Source: Eubacteriales bacterium (GTDB taxonomy: Bacteria > Bacillota > Clostridia > Lachnospirales > Lachnospiraceae). From it: a DNA stretch of 64,000 nucleotides. The DNA is taken from assembly GCA_030533405.1 (NCBI GenBank), contig JAUNJF010000001.1:186001-250000 (forward strand). Reading direction: 5' to 3'. A program made the translations under genes and the position numbers. Numbering within the stretch: position 1 is the stretch's first letter; every line of letters starts with the position of its first letter. Shown piece after piece: positions 10,949 to 14,900 of the stretch. The notes below the pieces were generated by a model, which saw only the letters and a list, made by a program, of their open reading frames with translations, searched no databases and had not been told where the DNA came from.

Positions 10949-11119
10949 TTAATCCTCAGCAATTGCACCTGCTGGGCAAGAACCAGCACATGATCCACAT
11001 GAAATGCATGCTGCTGCATCGATTTCGAATTTTCCATCTCCCTCGCTGATAGCACCAACTGGACAAGAACCAGCGCAAGCACCACATGATAAACAAGTAT
11101 CAGAAATAACGAATGCCAT
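10949..11119 (-). CDS. Ferredoxin, 2[4Fe-4S] clostridial type
   Basis: A 56-residue electron carrier found by translating the minus strand. It has two CxxCxxCxxxCP motifs: Cys9, 12, 15, 19 and Cys38, 41, 44, 48, each set binding one [4Fe-4S] cluster. The protein begins MAFVISDTCLSCGACAGSCP. An AAGGAGG lies eight bases before the ATG. A longer frame on the same strand is only a shadow of this gene. Such ferredoxins carry electrons for hydrogenase, Rnf or oxidoreductases. The position next to pflA is suggestive, because PFL activation needs a low-potential electron donor, but that link is inferred. Confidence 0.93.
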   Translation of the reverse strand: MAFVISDTCLSCGACAGSCPVGAISEGDGKFEIDAAACISCGSCAGSCPAGAIAED

Positions 11120-11270: not shown

Positions 11271-12029
11271 TTATAAAAGTCCGTCATCCTGTCTGCGTCG
11301 TTTTGCAGCTTTCAGGATGGTTTCTCTAGCGTGAATTGCCTGTTCTTTTGGCAAATCTTTTAATCCTTTTAATGGATATTCCATGCCGAGATTCTCGTAT
11401 TTTACAACTCCCATGCTGTGATATGGGAGACAATCGAGCGCTTTCAAGTGTTTTAATCCACCAATAAAATATCCAAGTTGATCAAGATATTCATCATTTA
11501 ATGTGATTCCTTCTACAATAACGTGGCGAATCCAAATATCGATTTCTTTTTCGTCTAAATATTTTGCAAAATCCAAAATATTATCATTTGGCTGCTGACA
11601 TAAAATCTGATGTTCTTCTGGATCAATGTGCTTGATGTCTAGCATGACCAAATCGGTACATTTTGCAAGGCGCTCAAACTTCTCCATTAATGTGGGGTTG
11701 TCTCTGTGGAATATAACACCAGAAGTATCCAAGCAGGTGTGAATTCCTTTTGCCTTTGCTGCTTCAAATAGCTCTATTAAAAAGTCAATCTGCATCAGAG
11801 GTTCACCGCCAGTTGCTGTGATTCCACCATTTGCATAAAAACTCTTCATCGAATCGTATTGTTCTAAAAGATCCTCGACAGTATGATCTTCACCGCCTCT
11901 TGGATCCCATGTATCTGGATTGTGGCAATATTTGCAACGCATTGGGCATCCTTTAAAGAATACAACAAAGCGCATACCTGGTCCGTCTACGGTACCACAG
12001 GTCTCAATAGAATGAATATGTCCAATCAT
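11271..12029 (-). CDS. pflA: Pyruvate formate-lyase activating enzyme
   Basis: PflA is a radical-SAM enzyme that abstracts a hydrogen from the glycyl residue of PFL to switch it on. The 252-residue protein has the cluster motif CPMRCKYC (Cys28-x3-Cys32-x2-Cys35), a GGEPL SAM-binding strand near residue 78 and typical length. A GGAGG lies 7 bases before the ATG. It is last in the minus-strand pfl operon, behind a hairpin with a T-run that probably lowers its expression relative to PFL. Because PFL is split here, the natural substrate should be the 80-residue glycyl-radical protein docked on the large subunit. Confidence 0.96.
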   Translation of the reverse strand: MIGHIHSIETCGTVDGPGMRFVVFFKGCPMRCKYCHNPDTWDPRGGEDHTVEDLLEQYDSMKSFYANGGITATGGEPLMQIDFLIELFEAAKAKGIHTCLDTSGVIFHRDNPTLMEKFERLAKCTDLVMLDIKHIDPEEHQILCQQPNDNILDFAKYLDEKEIDIWIRHVIVEGITLNDEYLDQLGYFIGGLKHLKALDCLPYHSMGVVKYENLGMEYPLKGLKDLPKEQAIHARETILKAAKRRRQDDGLL

Positions 12030-12041
12030 TTATTTTCCTCC

Positions 12042-12068
12042 AAAAAGGCTACCGCTTATGCGGTAGCC
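12042..12068 (-). terminator. Intercistronic terminator/attenuator before pflA
   Basis: A perfect 9-bp stem (GGCTACCGC at 12047-12055 with 12060-12068, loop TTAT), read on the minus strand and followed by five T and then immediately by the pflA ribosome binding site. Partial termination here would keep the activase well below its substrate. Confidence 0.8.
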
Positions 12069-12098
12069 CTGATTCAGTATTATAAAATACGAATAAAA

Positions 12099-12341
12099 TT
12101 ACATAGCCTCATGGAATGTTCTAGAGATAACATCAGCCTGCTGTTCTGGAGTTAACTTAACGAAGTTAACAGCATATCCAGAAACGCGGATTGTTAACTG
12201 TGGATAATTCTCTGGATGAGCCTGAGCATCTAATAATGTTTCACGGTTTAATACGTTAACATTTAAGTGATATCCACCTTTTTCAACATAACCATCTAAC
12301 ATGTTTACTAAGTTATCAACCTGCTGTGAATTTGTAGCCAT
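12099..12341 (-). CDS. Separate glycyl-radical subunit of pyruvate formate-lyase (GrcA/YfiD-like)
   Basis: An 80-residue protein equal to the C-terminal radical domain of a normal PFL. It has [15 protein letters not shown] at residues 25-39 and the radical loop [11 protein letters not shown], with Gly55 as the radical site, then [14 protein letters not shown] and a terminal M. In E. coli this sequence is fused to PflB, and a stand-alone copy (GrcA) only repairs oxygen-cut PFL. Here the adjacent large subunit lacks the domain, so this small protein must supply the radical. It follows the 72-residue paralogue by 50 bp and precedes pflA. The alternative, a repair protein beside a full PFL, is ruled out within this operon because the PFL frame ends before the domain. 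Confidence 0.9.
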
Positions 12342-12391
12342 TCTATAAATCCTCCTTATATTCTAAATGTAAATACAGTAAAAATCTGTAA

Positions 12392-12610
12392 TTATTGGTT
12401 TTGTAACTCTTCGTCCATACCTTCCATTAATGTTGGAACACTGCATGCAAGGTCGCCCTTGGCACAGTCAGTGCAGCCTAAAGTTACAGTAGATTTTTCG
12501 CCCTCTTTAATTGCTTCGTCCATAGAAATATTGATATGTCCATGTCCGCTTTCTACCATGCTGTCAAGCATGGCAACGATATCGTCTACTTTTGTTTTAT
12601 CGTCAGCCAT
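12392..12610 (-). CDS. Small cysteine-bearing paralogue of the glycyl-radical subunit
   Basis: A 72-residue protein with no radical glycine. Residues 7-30 (KVDDIVAMLDSMVESGHGHIN) align with the start of the 80-residue radical subunit ([21 protein letters not shown]). The second half has instead a LGCTDCAKGDLAC segment with Cys46, Cys49 and Cys56. It lies 24 bp after the PFL large subunit and 50 bp before the radical subunit, with its own GGAGG-like site, so it is made with PFL. It may dock in the same groove as the radical subunit as a placeholder, sensor or chaperone; the cysteines could bind metal or sense redox state. That is inference, and no function is known to me. Confidence 0.75.
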   Translation of the reverse strand: MADDKTKVDDIVAMLDSMVESGHGHINISMDEAIKEGEKSTVTLGCTDCAKGDLACSVPTLMEGMDEELQNQ

Positions 12611-12634
12611 AAGAAACCTCCGAGTCTAAACTCC

Positions 12635-14677
12635 TTACTTGCTTAAGTCGATCTCGATGTCGCCAGCGAATACCTGATCTTCCTTACCAAGAGCACCAGG
12701 GATGATTGAGAATGTATTAGAAATACCATCCTGAGCATCCTTGAATGGAATCTTAGCTACTGAAGAAAGGGAAGCTACAGCACCATGAGTATCTCTCTTG
12801 TGAAGTGGGTTAGCACCTGGAGCAAATGGCTCACCATGCTTACGTCCACAAGGAGTATCACCTGTGTTCTTACCATAAGTTACGTTAGAAGTAATAGTAA
12901 GGATAGACTGTGTTGGAACACCATTACGATATACGTGCTGTGCTCTAATCTTATCCATGAACTTTGTAACGATTCCTGTAGCAATATCATCTACACGGTC
13001 ATCGTTGTTACCATATTTAGGGAAATCTCCCTCTGTCTTGTAGCTTACTACGATACCCTGCTCATTACGAACTGGAGTAACCTTAGCATACTTGATAGCT
13101 GATAAAGAGTCAGCTACGATTGAAAGACCAGCAACACCTGTTGCGAAGTATCTCTTAACGTCTCTGTCATGTAATGCCATCTGAATTCTTTCATAAGCAT
13201 ATTTGTCATGCATATAGTGGATGATGTTAAGTGCGCTAACGTATACCTTAGCTAACCAATCCATCATATCATCAAACTTAGCCATTACATCATCGAAGTC
13301 AAGAACGCCGTCGCCTTCAACTGGACGATACTTTGGTCCAACCTGTACACCTGTACACTCATCAACACCACCGTTGATAGCGTAAAGTAAACATTTAGCA
13401 AGGTTAGCACGTGCTCCGAAGAACTGCATTTCCTTACCAATTACCATTGAAGATACGCAACATGCGATACCATAATCATCTCCGTGAATTGGTCTCATTA
13501 AGTCGTCGTTCTCATACTGGATAGAAGAAGACTTGATAGACATCTTAGCACAGAACTGCTTCCATCCCATTGGAAGACCCTTTGCCCAAAGAACTGTCAT
13601 GTTTGGTTCTGGAGCAGCACCTAAGTTGTTAAGTGTGTTCAAGAAACGGAATGATGTCTTTGATACTAATGTACGTCCATCAACACCCATACCACCTAAA
13701 GATTCTGTTACCCAAACTGGGTCACCAGCGAAAATCTGGTTGTACTCTGGTGTACGTGCGAACTTAACGCAACGAAGCTTCATTACGAAGTGATCAACGA
13801 ACTCCTGAATCTGCTCCTCTGTAAATGTGCCGTTAGCTAAATCTCTCTCAGCATAGATATCGATGAAAGTAGATGTACGTCCTAATGACATAGCAGCACC
13901 ATTCTGCTCTTTAACAGCGCCTAAGTATCCGAAATATGTCCACTGAATAGCTTCCTGAACATTCTTAGCTGGCTTAGAAATATCACAGCCATAGAAAGAA
14001 GCCATCTTTGTTAACTCTTTAAGAGCCTTGATCTGCTCAGAAATCTCTTCCTTACCACGAATTACTTCATCTGTGTAAATGCGTCCGAAAGACTCTTTCT
14101 GCTCTAACTTATCCTCGATTAATCTGTCTGTACCATAAAGAGCAACTCTTCTGTAGTCACCGATGATACGTCCACGTCCGTAAGCATCTGGAAGACCTGT
14201 TACGATATGGTTTGTACGACATGTTCTAATCTCTGCATCATATACATCAAATACACCTTCGTTGTGTGTTTTTCTGTGTTTTGAGAAGAAATCAACAGTT
14301 TCAGGATCAACTGTGTATCCGTTGTCCTCACAAGCCTTCATAGCCATACGAAGACCACCGTATACGTTCATACCTCTCTTGAATGGAGCGTCTGTCTGGA
14401 AACCAACGATTGTTTCCTTGTCCTTATCCAAATATCCAGCACCATGAGAAGTTAAAGTAGAAACAACCTTAGTATCCATATCAAGAACACCGCCTGCTTC
14501 TCTTTCCTTCTTTGTTAATTCCATAACCTGTGCCCAAAGATCTGTTGTGTTCTGTGTAGGTCCAGCTAAGAAAGAATCATCACCTTCATATGGTGTGTAG
14601 TTCTTCTGGATAAAGTCACGAACATCGATGAACTTCTGCCAATTACCGCCTGTGAAACCATTCCATTCAGCATTCAT
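12635..14677 (-). CDS. pflB: Pyruvate formate-lyase large subunit, lacking the glycyl-radical domain
   Basis: PFL cleaves pyruvate with CoA to acetyl-CoA and formate. The 680-residue protein matches E. coli PflB (760 residues) across the barrel, with the catalytic pair in GIACCVSSM (Cys406-Cys407) and the MQFFGARANLAK motif. It ends at SNTFSIIPGALGKEDQVFAGDIEIDLSK, just where E. coli continues into the radical domain. The missing part is the separate gene at 12099-12341. The break is a clean gene boundary with new ribosome binding sites, not a frameshift. The start at 14677 has AAGGAGG upstream; the in-frame extension to 14746 has none. It has a strong promoter at 14753-14781 containing a GTATAC site. 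Confidence 0.95.
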   Translation of the reverse strand: MNAEWNGFTGGNWQKFIDVRDFIQKNYTPYEGDDSFLAGPTQNTTDLWAQVMELTKKEREAGGVLDMDTKVVSTLTSHGAGYLDKDKETIVGFQTDAPFKRGMNVYGGLRMAMKACEDNGYTVDPETVDFFSKHRKTHNEGVFDVYDAEIRTCRTNHIVTGLPDAYGRGRIIGDYRRVALYGTDRLIEDKLEQKESFGRIYTDEVIRGKEEISEQIKALKELTKMASFYGCDISKPAKNVQEAIQWTYFGYLGAVKEQNGAAMSLGRTSTFIDIYAERDLANGTFTEEQIQEFVDHFVMKLRCVKFARTPEYNQIFAGDPVWVTESLGGMGVDGRTLVSKTSFRFLNTLNNLGAAPEPNMTVLWAKGLPMGWKQFCAKMSIKSSSIQYENDDLMRPIHGDDYGIACCVSSMVIGKEMQFFGARANLAKCLLYAINGGVDECTGVQVGPKYRPVEGDGVLDFDDVMAKFDDMMDWLAKVYVSALNIIHYMHDKYAYERIQMALHDRDVKRYFATGVAGLSIVADSLSAIKYAKVTPVRNEQGIVVSYKTEGDFPKYGNNDDRVDDIATGIVTKFMDKIRAQHVYRNGVPTQSILTITSNVTYGKNTGDTPCGRKHGEPFAPGANPLHKRDTHGAVASLSSVAKIPFKDAQDGISNTFSIIPGALGKEDQVFAGDIEIDLSK

Positions 14678-14752: not shown

Positions 14753-14781
14753 ATTATAGATTTATATTGTATACACGTCAA
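14753..14781 (-). promoter_or_regulatory. pflB promoter with embedded GTATAC site
   Basis: On the minus strand: -35 TTGACG (14781-14776), a 17-bp spacer, -10 TATAAT (14758-14753). The spacer contains GTATAC (14769-14774), a position where a bound repressor would block RNA polymerase. Confidence 0.8.
14767..14777. promoter_or_regulatory. TTGTATACACG motif, copy 1
   Basis: An 11-bp word inside the pflB promoter that is repeated exactly at 14890-14900. Its GTATAC core also occurs as a tandem pair at the ispE-gntR promoter. It is a candidate site for the GntR regulator at 838-1518 or another FCD-type regulator. Confidence 0.5.
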
Positions 14782-14889: not shown

Positions 14890-14900
14890 TTGTATACACG
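14890..14900. promoter_or_regulatory. TTGTATACACG motif, copy 2
   Basis: Exact 11-bp repeat of 14767-14777, 123 bp away and upstream of pflB. The 14678-15078 gap otherwise holds only the pflB promoter, A/T-rich sequence and a weak possible promoter for the VWA gene; no coding frame is convincing there. Confidence 0.5.

Follow-up and report, generated by a model that had tools for sequence, protein, structure and literature searches.

A split pyruvate formate-lyase and its operon

The 64,000-nucleotide stretch analysed here (the window: Eubacteriales bacterium of the family Lachnospiraceae, assembly GCA_030533405.1, contig JAUNJF010000001.1, positions 186,001 to 250,000) encodes a pyruvate formate-lyase (PFL) whose glycyl radical loop lies on a separate small subunit, and a further conserved protein of 72 amino acids, here called MID, is encoded between the catalytic body and that subunit. 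PFL, the textbook example among glycyl radical enzymes, is vulnerable in that oxygen cleaves its chain at the site of the radical. Here this weak piece appears to have been turned by evolution into a lasting separate chain, accompanied by a third conserved protein. On the comparison of genes and genomes given below, a PFL assembled from separate chains is probably the normal form here; this estimate concerns the multi-chain PFL alone and excludes any cap, and the estimates given further on for the roles of MID are matters of judgement. The open reading frames of the window place four genes on the minus strand in the order PFL body, MID, radical subunit and PflA, as follows.

12635..14677, minus strand: PFL large (catalytic) subunit, 680 amino acids, with Cys406-Cys407, no radical loop and a distinct C-terminal tail (TIGR01255, PF02901)
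12392..12610, minus strand: MID, 72 amino acids, with a radical-domain-like N-terminal half and GCTDCAKGDLACSVPTL in the C-terminal half (HHalign, conservation)
12099..12341, minus strand: separate glycyl-radical subunit, 80 amino acids, with Gly55 in RVSGYAV (NF038360, PF01228)
11271..12029, minus strand: PFL-activating enzyme PflA (radical S-adenosylmethionine enzyme), 252 amino acids (TIGR02493 PFLA, 278.5 bits, cut-off 231.75)

The body matched TIGR01255 over positions 1 to 665 of 744 with 1074.8 bits, above the cut-off of 994.2, and PF02901 with 708.6 bits, and its Cys406-Cys407 pair (window numbering; Cys418-Cys419 in E. coli) was invariant in an alignment of 17 rows. It is not a one-chain PFL, since the TIGR01255 match stops at position 665 and the glycyl radical loop is a separate gene, though the split enzyme would be expected to work like PFL. 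The Pfam family Gly_radical (PF01228, 106 positions) was found divided, with positions 1 to 51 in the body and 50 to 106 in the 80-residue protein, which scored 161.5 bits against NF038360 (GrcA3), above the cut-off of 158, and whose Gly55 aligns with Gly734 of E. coli PFL. The body tracks E. coli PFL in the alignment to about residue 682 and thereafter follows its own tail (...GKEDQVFAGDIEIDLSK), which is not present in the fused PFLs compared; the solved chains nearest to the body are 38lb, 38la and 1h16. An earlier reading of this DNA, made from sequence only, had given the coordinates, lengths and motifs, the Cys406-Cys407 pair and the separate 80-residue Gly55 gene in the operon, and these were confirmed by the open reading frames and the profile matches. 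Its view that the body ends before the radical domain holds in that there is no radical loop, but the end is not a plain stop, the tail being the body's own, and its account of a body and a small gene only left out the conserved MID gene (12610-12392) that lies between them.

PF02901 gave a single match in the assembly of the window genome (G000), and the search for a full-length pflB elsewhere that the sequence-only reading had proposed found none in this assembly, which at 95.8% completeness falls short of an absolute exclusion. PF01228 was matched at four places in the genome, two of them in the operon; contigs C14 and C88 contain one each, and these frames, considered as a second PFL, encode anaerobic ribonucleotide reductase, NrdD (871.5 and 872.2 bits). 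The GrcA3 profile had one match in the genome, which is the operon copy.

Conservation and distribution of the split form

Genome contigs were scanned for the radical subunit and the best 80 loci were fetched, with more loci existing. The order body, MID, radical subunit was observed in 56 of these 80, and the break is accordingly conserved in related genomes, a point that the earlier reading had proposed to check; one more locus (L087) has MID and the radical-subunit gene at a contig start, and the remaining 23 carry a radical-subunit gene without a body in view, the gene lying less than 200 bases from the locus edge in L048, L062 and L068. No fused radical loop was found on the bodies of these 80 loci. 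MID was detected in 21 of the 26 genomes of the window's genus. The median ratio of nonsynonymous to synonymous substitution rates (dN/dS) within the genus was 0.083 for MID (117 pairs), 0.064 for the radical subunit (208 pairs) and, over the final 900 bases of the body gene, 0.061 (169 pairs), with pairs of dS 0.05–3 being kept, and all three split-PFL genes are under purifying selection; pflA gave 0.045, from 6 pairs kept. Shine-Dalgarno-like sites were observed in front of 92 of 108 MID genes and 105 of 106 radical-subunit genes, against 501 of 6000 random positions. The proposal that a two-part enzyme is the normal form gains from the sole PFL found and from the conserved break, and it has to be amended in that a third conserved protein or a Cys-bearing body tail is nearly always present.

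In a profile search of 196 genomes of the order, MID matches of at least 55 bits were found in 34 genomes at 35 places. All 34 genomes have a split body upstream and a radical-subunit gene downstream; the 35th place (G138, contig C97) is near a contig end with the body not in view. A split body and a radical-subunit gene without MID were found in seven genomes (G218, G151, G225, G194, G189, G163 and G169), and the split form occurs by this count in 41 of the 196. Within the window's family it was present in 14 of 35 sampled genomes, and many other members of the family carry a fused PFL. The places where MID matched with at most 30 bits were fused PFL frames, frames matched by GrcA3 as well, and a few other small frames. 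The full-length PFL matches listed, which extend down to about 1106 bits, include none of the 34 MID genomes. In a set of 398 genomes of the phylum, MID passed E 1e-8 in G000 and G063 only, and radical-subunit matches in frames of at most 120 amino acids came from G000, G063, G592 and G608. The frames of 198 and 252 amino acids in L205 and L206 were rejected as free radical subunits, since each belongs to a fused PFL interrupted by a contig end or by a stretch of N.

The MID protein and its cysteine segment

MID matched no family of Pfam or NCBIfam above cut-off, the best being ExbD with 12.2 bits (cut-off 25.4) and GrcA3 with 15.4 bits (cut-off 158), and there was no match below E 0.12 among the PHROGs and none among 72,556 plasmid records. 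The best PDB profile match, to a designed protein (E 0.0039), was judged to be due to chance. Within the sequence and literature libraries searched, MID would thus appear to be an undescribed family. HHalign matches roughly its first 31 residues to the beginning of the radical subunit (probability 94.4, E 8.7e-8), which is the stretch leading into the radical domain, and its second half carries a Cys segment where the glycyl loop would be, SGY being present in none of the 109 distinct MIDs. The motif A-C-x-x-P was observed in 108 of these 109, the exception, in L159, reading P-C-x-x-P. A second Cys stands 2–7 residues ahead of the A-C-x-x-P Cys in 107 of the distinct MIDs, C-x-x-C precedes the motif in 84 (pattern C-x2-C-x(3-6)-A-C), and 22 have only two Cys.

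Weak matches to the MID profile (at most 26.5 bits) were also seen in G162, G209 and G224, in free-standing small frames whose first half is MID-like (L211:1826-2026 on the minus strand, L212:969-1163 and L213:2010-2249), two of which share the second half ...YHHGRCDVGSP...; these frames, which lie outside the count of 34 genomes, are possibly a second MID-like family. Nothing recognisable was found in a low-scoring MID-like frame of G200 (contig C41).

The Cys segment changes place between the chains. Cys was absent from all 59 distinct tails of bodies accompanied by MID and from all 26 fused linkers (one further fused row was unparsed), and C-x-x-P was present in the tails of six of the seven MID-less split bodies of the order, namely ...CGNQACNIPN... 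in L142 and ...CLCCEPN or ...CLCCEPT in L143, L144 and L146–L148; the latter five come from five genomes of one genus and therefore count as about one event. L202 and L203, from another family of the phylum, have no adjoining MID, and their tails end in ...FACSEPNVTIEEDK and ...LACREPNVSISEKEDK with one Cys each, so that the motif stands in cis in eight of nine MID-less split loci, from about three lineages. No other clue speaks as strongly for an action of the segment on the body as this change of place, and the comparison points to a single role for MID and the similar body-tail segment, fulfilled in trans or in cis. The clear exception is the split PFL of G194 (L145), which has neither MID nor a Cys tail.

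Evolution of split and fused forms

A tree was made of 67 bodies with the radical part omitted, comprising 34 split bodies with MID (hand-picked for spread among the complete ones), six of the seven MID-less split bodies and 27 fused PFLs; this and all other trees were made by a quick method. The 40 split rows fell in one starred branch of 42 rows, the remaining two being the fused PFLs of G230 and G150, and these two were nested in a starred sub-branch together with 19 split rows. Adding L202–L204 (70 rows) gave a tree whose basal relations were not resolved, those of a long fused clade of eight among them. A constraint uniting all 42 split rows of the 70-row set was rejected in the approximately unbiased test (p 0.00075), which fits re-fusion in G230 and G150; the eight-row fused clade or long branches could also explain it. 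The nested fused PFLs of G230 and G150 have no Cys in the linker and their genomes have no full-length MID. Their fused radical domains scored 162.4 bits (G230, L150) and 151.5 bits (G150, L161) against GrcA3, above and below its cut-off respectively, and in both PFLs the radical domain has apparently been fused back.

Proposed mechanism and alternatives

By analogy with the biochemistry of PFL and GrcA, PflA would install the radical at Gly55 of the 80-residue subunit, and this subunit would sit in the barrel of the body and hand the radical to Cys407; where oxygen cuts the radical loop, the 80-residue chain alone would be lost and a fresh chain would take its place. The small chain would in this way replace the radical domain outright. 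An E. coli strain with PflB G734A together with GrcA still makes intermediate amounts of formate (PMC12338860), so PFL can be driven by the radical of another chain, and truncated PFL combined with YfiD reaches wild-type activity after it has been activated (PMC8683613).

The radical-domain-like half of MID may dock on the body and so place the A-C-x-x-P thiol near the opening of the active site, and the thiol would cap or protect the Cys406-Cys407 site while the radical subunit is unbound. This docked thiol cap is offered as a tentative reading, the likeliest of the roles considered for MID but on the whole doubtful. The fuller picture of a three-component PFL, in which a replaceable radical subunit alternates on the body with MID as a redox cap, the cap being provided in trans or as a tail and lost on re-fusion, is rather unlikely to hold as a whole.

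Several observations weigh against a multi-chain PFL with MID as its general form. The split is common in the window's family but is not the rule there. Five of the 26 genomes of the genus have no MID match: in G010 and G013 the body gene is cut by the contig end, in G011 one contig ends within the first part of the body gene and another carries a free radical subunit, and G001 and G007 have no PFL match. The exception of L145 indicates that the Cys segment is not strictly needed, and the window genome has no second copy of the radical subunit. For E. coli PFL cut at residue 695, binding of YfiD was not measurable and activation was 32-fold less, residues 696–733 being critical for YfiD binding (PMC8683613), so that the native split pair must bind differently. 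Binding of the three proteins to one another, and contact of MID with the active site, are predictions.

Among the other roles that MID might have, that of an assembly adaptor would be to keep the radical subunit attached to the body, MID standing in, in trans, for the 696–733 region that the split body lacks. It would account for the homology of MID with the first 30 or so residues of the radical domain, for the poor YfiD binding of PFL truncated without 696–733 (PMC8683613) and for the two nested fused PFLs doing without MID; the MID-less bodies, however, retain the Cys segment only and not the radical-domain-like half, so that it is the thiol segment whose function seems to have been kept, and the adaptor is regarded as somewhat improbable. 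MID, being related to the radical domain and bearing a nearly invariant thiol, would also suit a deliberate quencher, donating a hydrogen atom to the glycyl radical, but a gene flanked by those of body and radical subunit, and in most cases preceded by a ribosome-binding-like site of its own, would be odd for a pure inhibitor, and this role seems quite unlikely. Hydroxyphenylacetate decarboxylase and benzylsuccinate synthase are glycyl radical enzymes with small Cys-bearing partners, and MID could, like these small subunits, bind a metal or an Fe-S cluster. The pattern C-x2-C-x(3-6)-A-C in 84 of the 109 distinct MIDs is in line with such binding; with two Cys only in 22 MIDs and one in the tails of L202 and L203 there are too few ligands per chain, and MID further differs from those subunits in being related to the radical domain itself and in having fewer Cys than their Fe-S clusters need, which leaves metal binding distinctly improbable.

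As to the enzyme itself, body and radical subunit might cleave some other 2-oxo acid rather than mainly pyruvate, which is very unlikely given a body above the cut-off of the formate C-acetyltransferase equivalog (1074.8 against 994.2) and the sole PFL found in its genome. Programmed stop read-through or frameshifting, yielding a fused chain, might be supposed from the window, where body and MID are in one frame across 8 codons, and from some relatives, where all three genes are in one frame; but over 103 loci with distinct MIDs the three possible frames of MID with respect to the body were taken 35/29/39 times (48/34/43 over 125 loci including near-copies) and the gaps differ widely, so there is no fixed read-through and the explanation is highly improbable. 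A broken gene or misassembly, that is an ordinary PFL with a frameshift or stop, has next to no likelihood, the misassembly having been raised by the sequence-only reading itself, and is refuted at the level of the lineage, because the same break with a distinct tail and own start sites recurs in dozens of genomes under purifying selection (dN/dS 0.06–0.08).

Comparison with known systems

With E. coli PflB (TIGR01255), the split PFL shares a homologous body, the Cys-Cys pair, the PflA partner and the RVSGYAV loop; it differs in that E. coli PflB is one chain, whereas here there are a separate radical-loop gene, a new body tail and a third protein. GrcA/YfiD is likewise a separate small radical-loop protein, able to serve a PFL body without its own radical, but YfiD serves a full-length PFL as a spare and has a disordered N-terminus of about 60 residues that is not present in the small protein of the window. 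The window body has no radical domain, and the small protein therefore cannot be only a spare; nor was the full-length PFL that a spare part would accompany found in G000. By its score the small protein is a GrcA3 of NF038360, a family named a 'cofactor' and compared here by its one-line description. The PDB entries 38la and 38lb, under the name 'Formate acetyltransferase', are PFL bodies in whose chains the small-subunit search found no radical domain, and these chains were not among the PDB matches of the radical subunit (E at most 0.01) or of MID (E at most 10); in 38lb the residues beyond the body resemble those of the split bodies, the last 35 or so residues lying outside the comparison. 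In a literature search covering the best matches by titles and starts of abstracts, with few subscription papers, no account of a naturally split PFL or of MID was recognised, and 'GrcA3' and 'GrcA2' did not occur in the collection searched.

The comparison suggests that some anaerobes have made the 'spare part' a permanent subunit. In such gut anaerobes a GrcA-like gene would encode an essential subunit, not merely a repair part, wherever the PFL body has no radical domain, and a natural system of two or three parts makes radical installation, transfer between chains and repair open to study with separate purified proteins.

Free-standing radical subunits

A gene of Crp/Fnr type was observed 115–895 bases upstream of the radical-subunit gene on the same strand in 13 of the 23 body-less loci and, within the DNA fetched for each locus, in none of the 56 body loci among the best 80. 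The radical-subunit copies behind such a gene are those of L040, L046, L066, L069, L073, L079 and L080, and further of L083, L084, L092, L093, L094 and L109; the regulator in L040 matches FixK/FtrB-type models below their cut-offs. As an association, this fits a stock of replacement radical subunits under redox control, and the body-less copies are consistent with the idea of a disposable subunit without showing it. By eye, the free radical subunit of G011 (L209), from the window's genus, also follows a gene resembling a Crp/Fnr-type regulator, and in L158:4234-5441 a free radical-subunit gene adjoins thioredoxin and rubrerythrin genes. Among 50,697 phage records, 1539 encode a protein like the radical subunit; for 1535 of these the identity is no more than 80%, and some are annotated as autonomous glycyl radical cofactor.

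Regulatory sites and neighbouring genes

Two further features of the operon lie outside the coding sequences, and a GGAGG-like site stands just 5' of each of the four genes.

14753..14781, minus strand: promoter-like TTGACG-17-TATAAT, about 75 nucleotides 5' of the body gene, with 11 of 12 consensus matches
12042..12069, minus strand: GC-rich hairpin followed by a T run, in the gap from the radical-subunit gene to pflA, resembling a terminator or attenuator (ViennaRNA fold)

The promoter-like site was the best of 14 in a consensus scan, a number no higher than chance, as shuffles averaged 14.7 sites; TTGAC-like boxes were seen by eye, and not counted, 5' of many among 78 pfl genes. The hairpin was strong in the ViennaRNA fold, though absent from the list of the consensus scan. 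Upstream of the body gene TTGTATACACG occurs twice (window 14767-14777 and 14890-14900), one copy lying between the -35 and -10 hexamers, and shuffling the window 100 times gave at least two near-matches of this 11-mer in 22 cases. TGTATACA stands on the 5' side of 21 of the 78 pfl genes, both split and fused, often inside TTGACGTGTATACA; the repeated upstream site is a possible candidate for a shared operator. About 150 nucleotides 3' of pflA, on the same strand (window 10949-11119), lies a gene for a two-cluster ferredoxin of 56 amino acids (FdxA family), which could be the electron donor for PflA.

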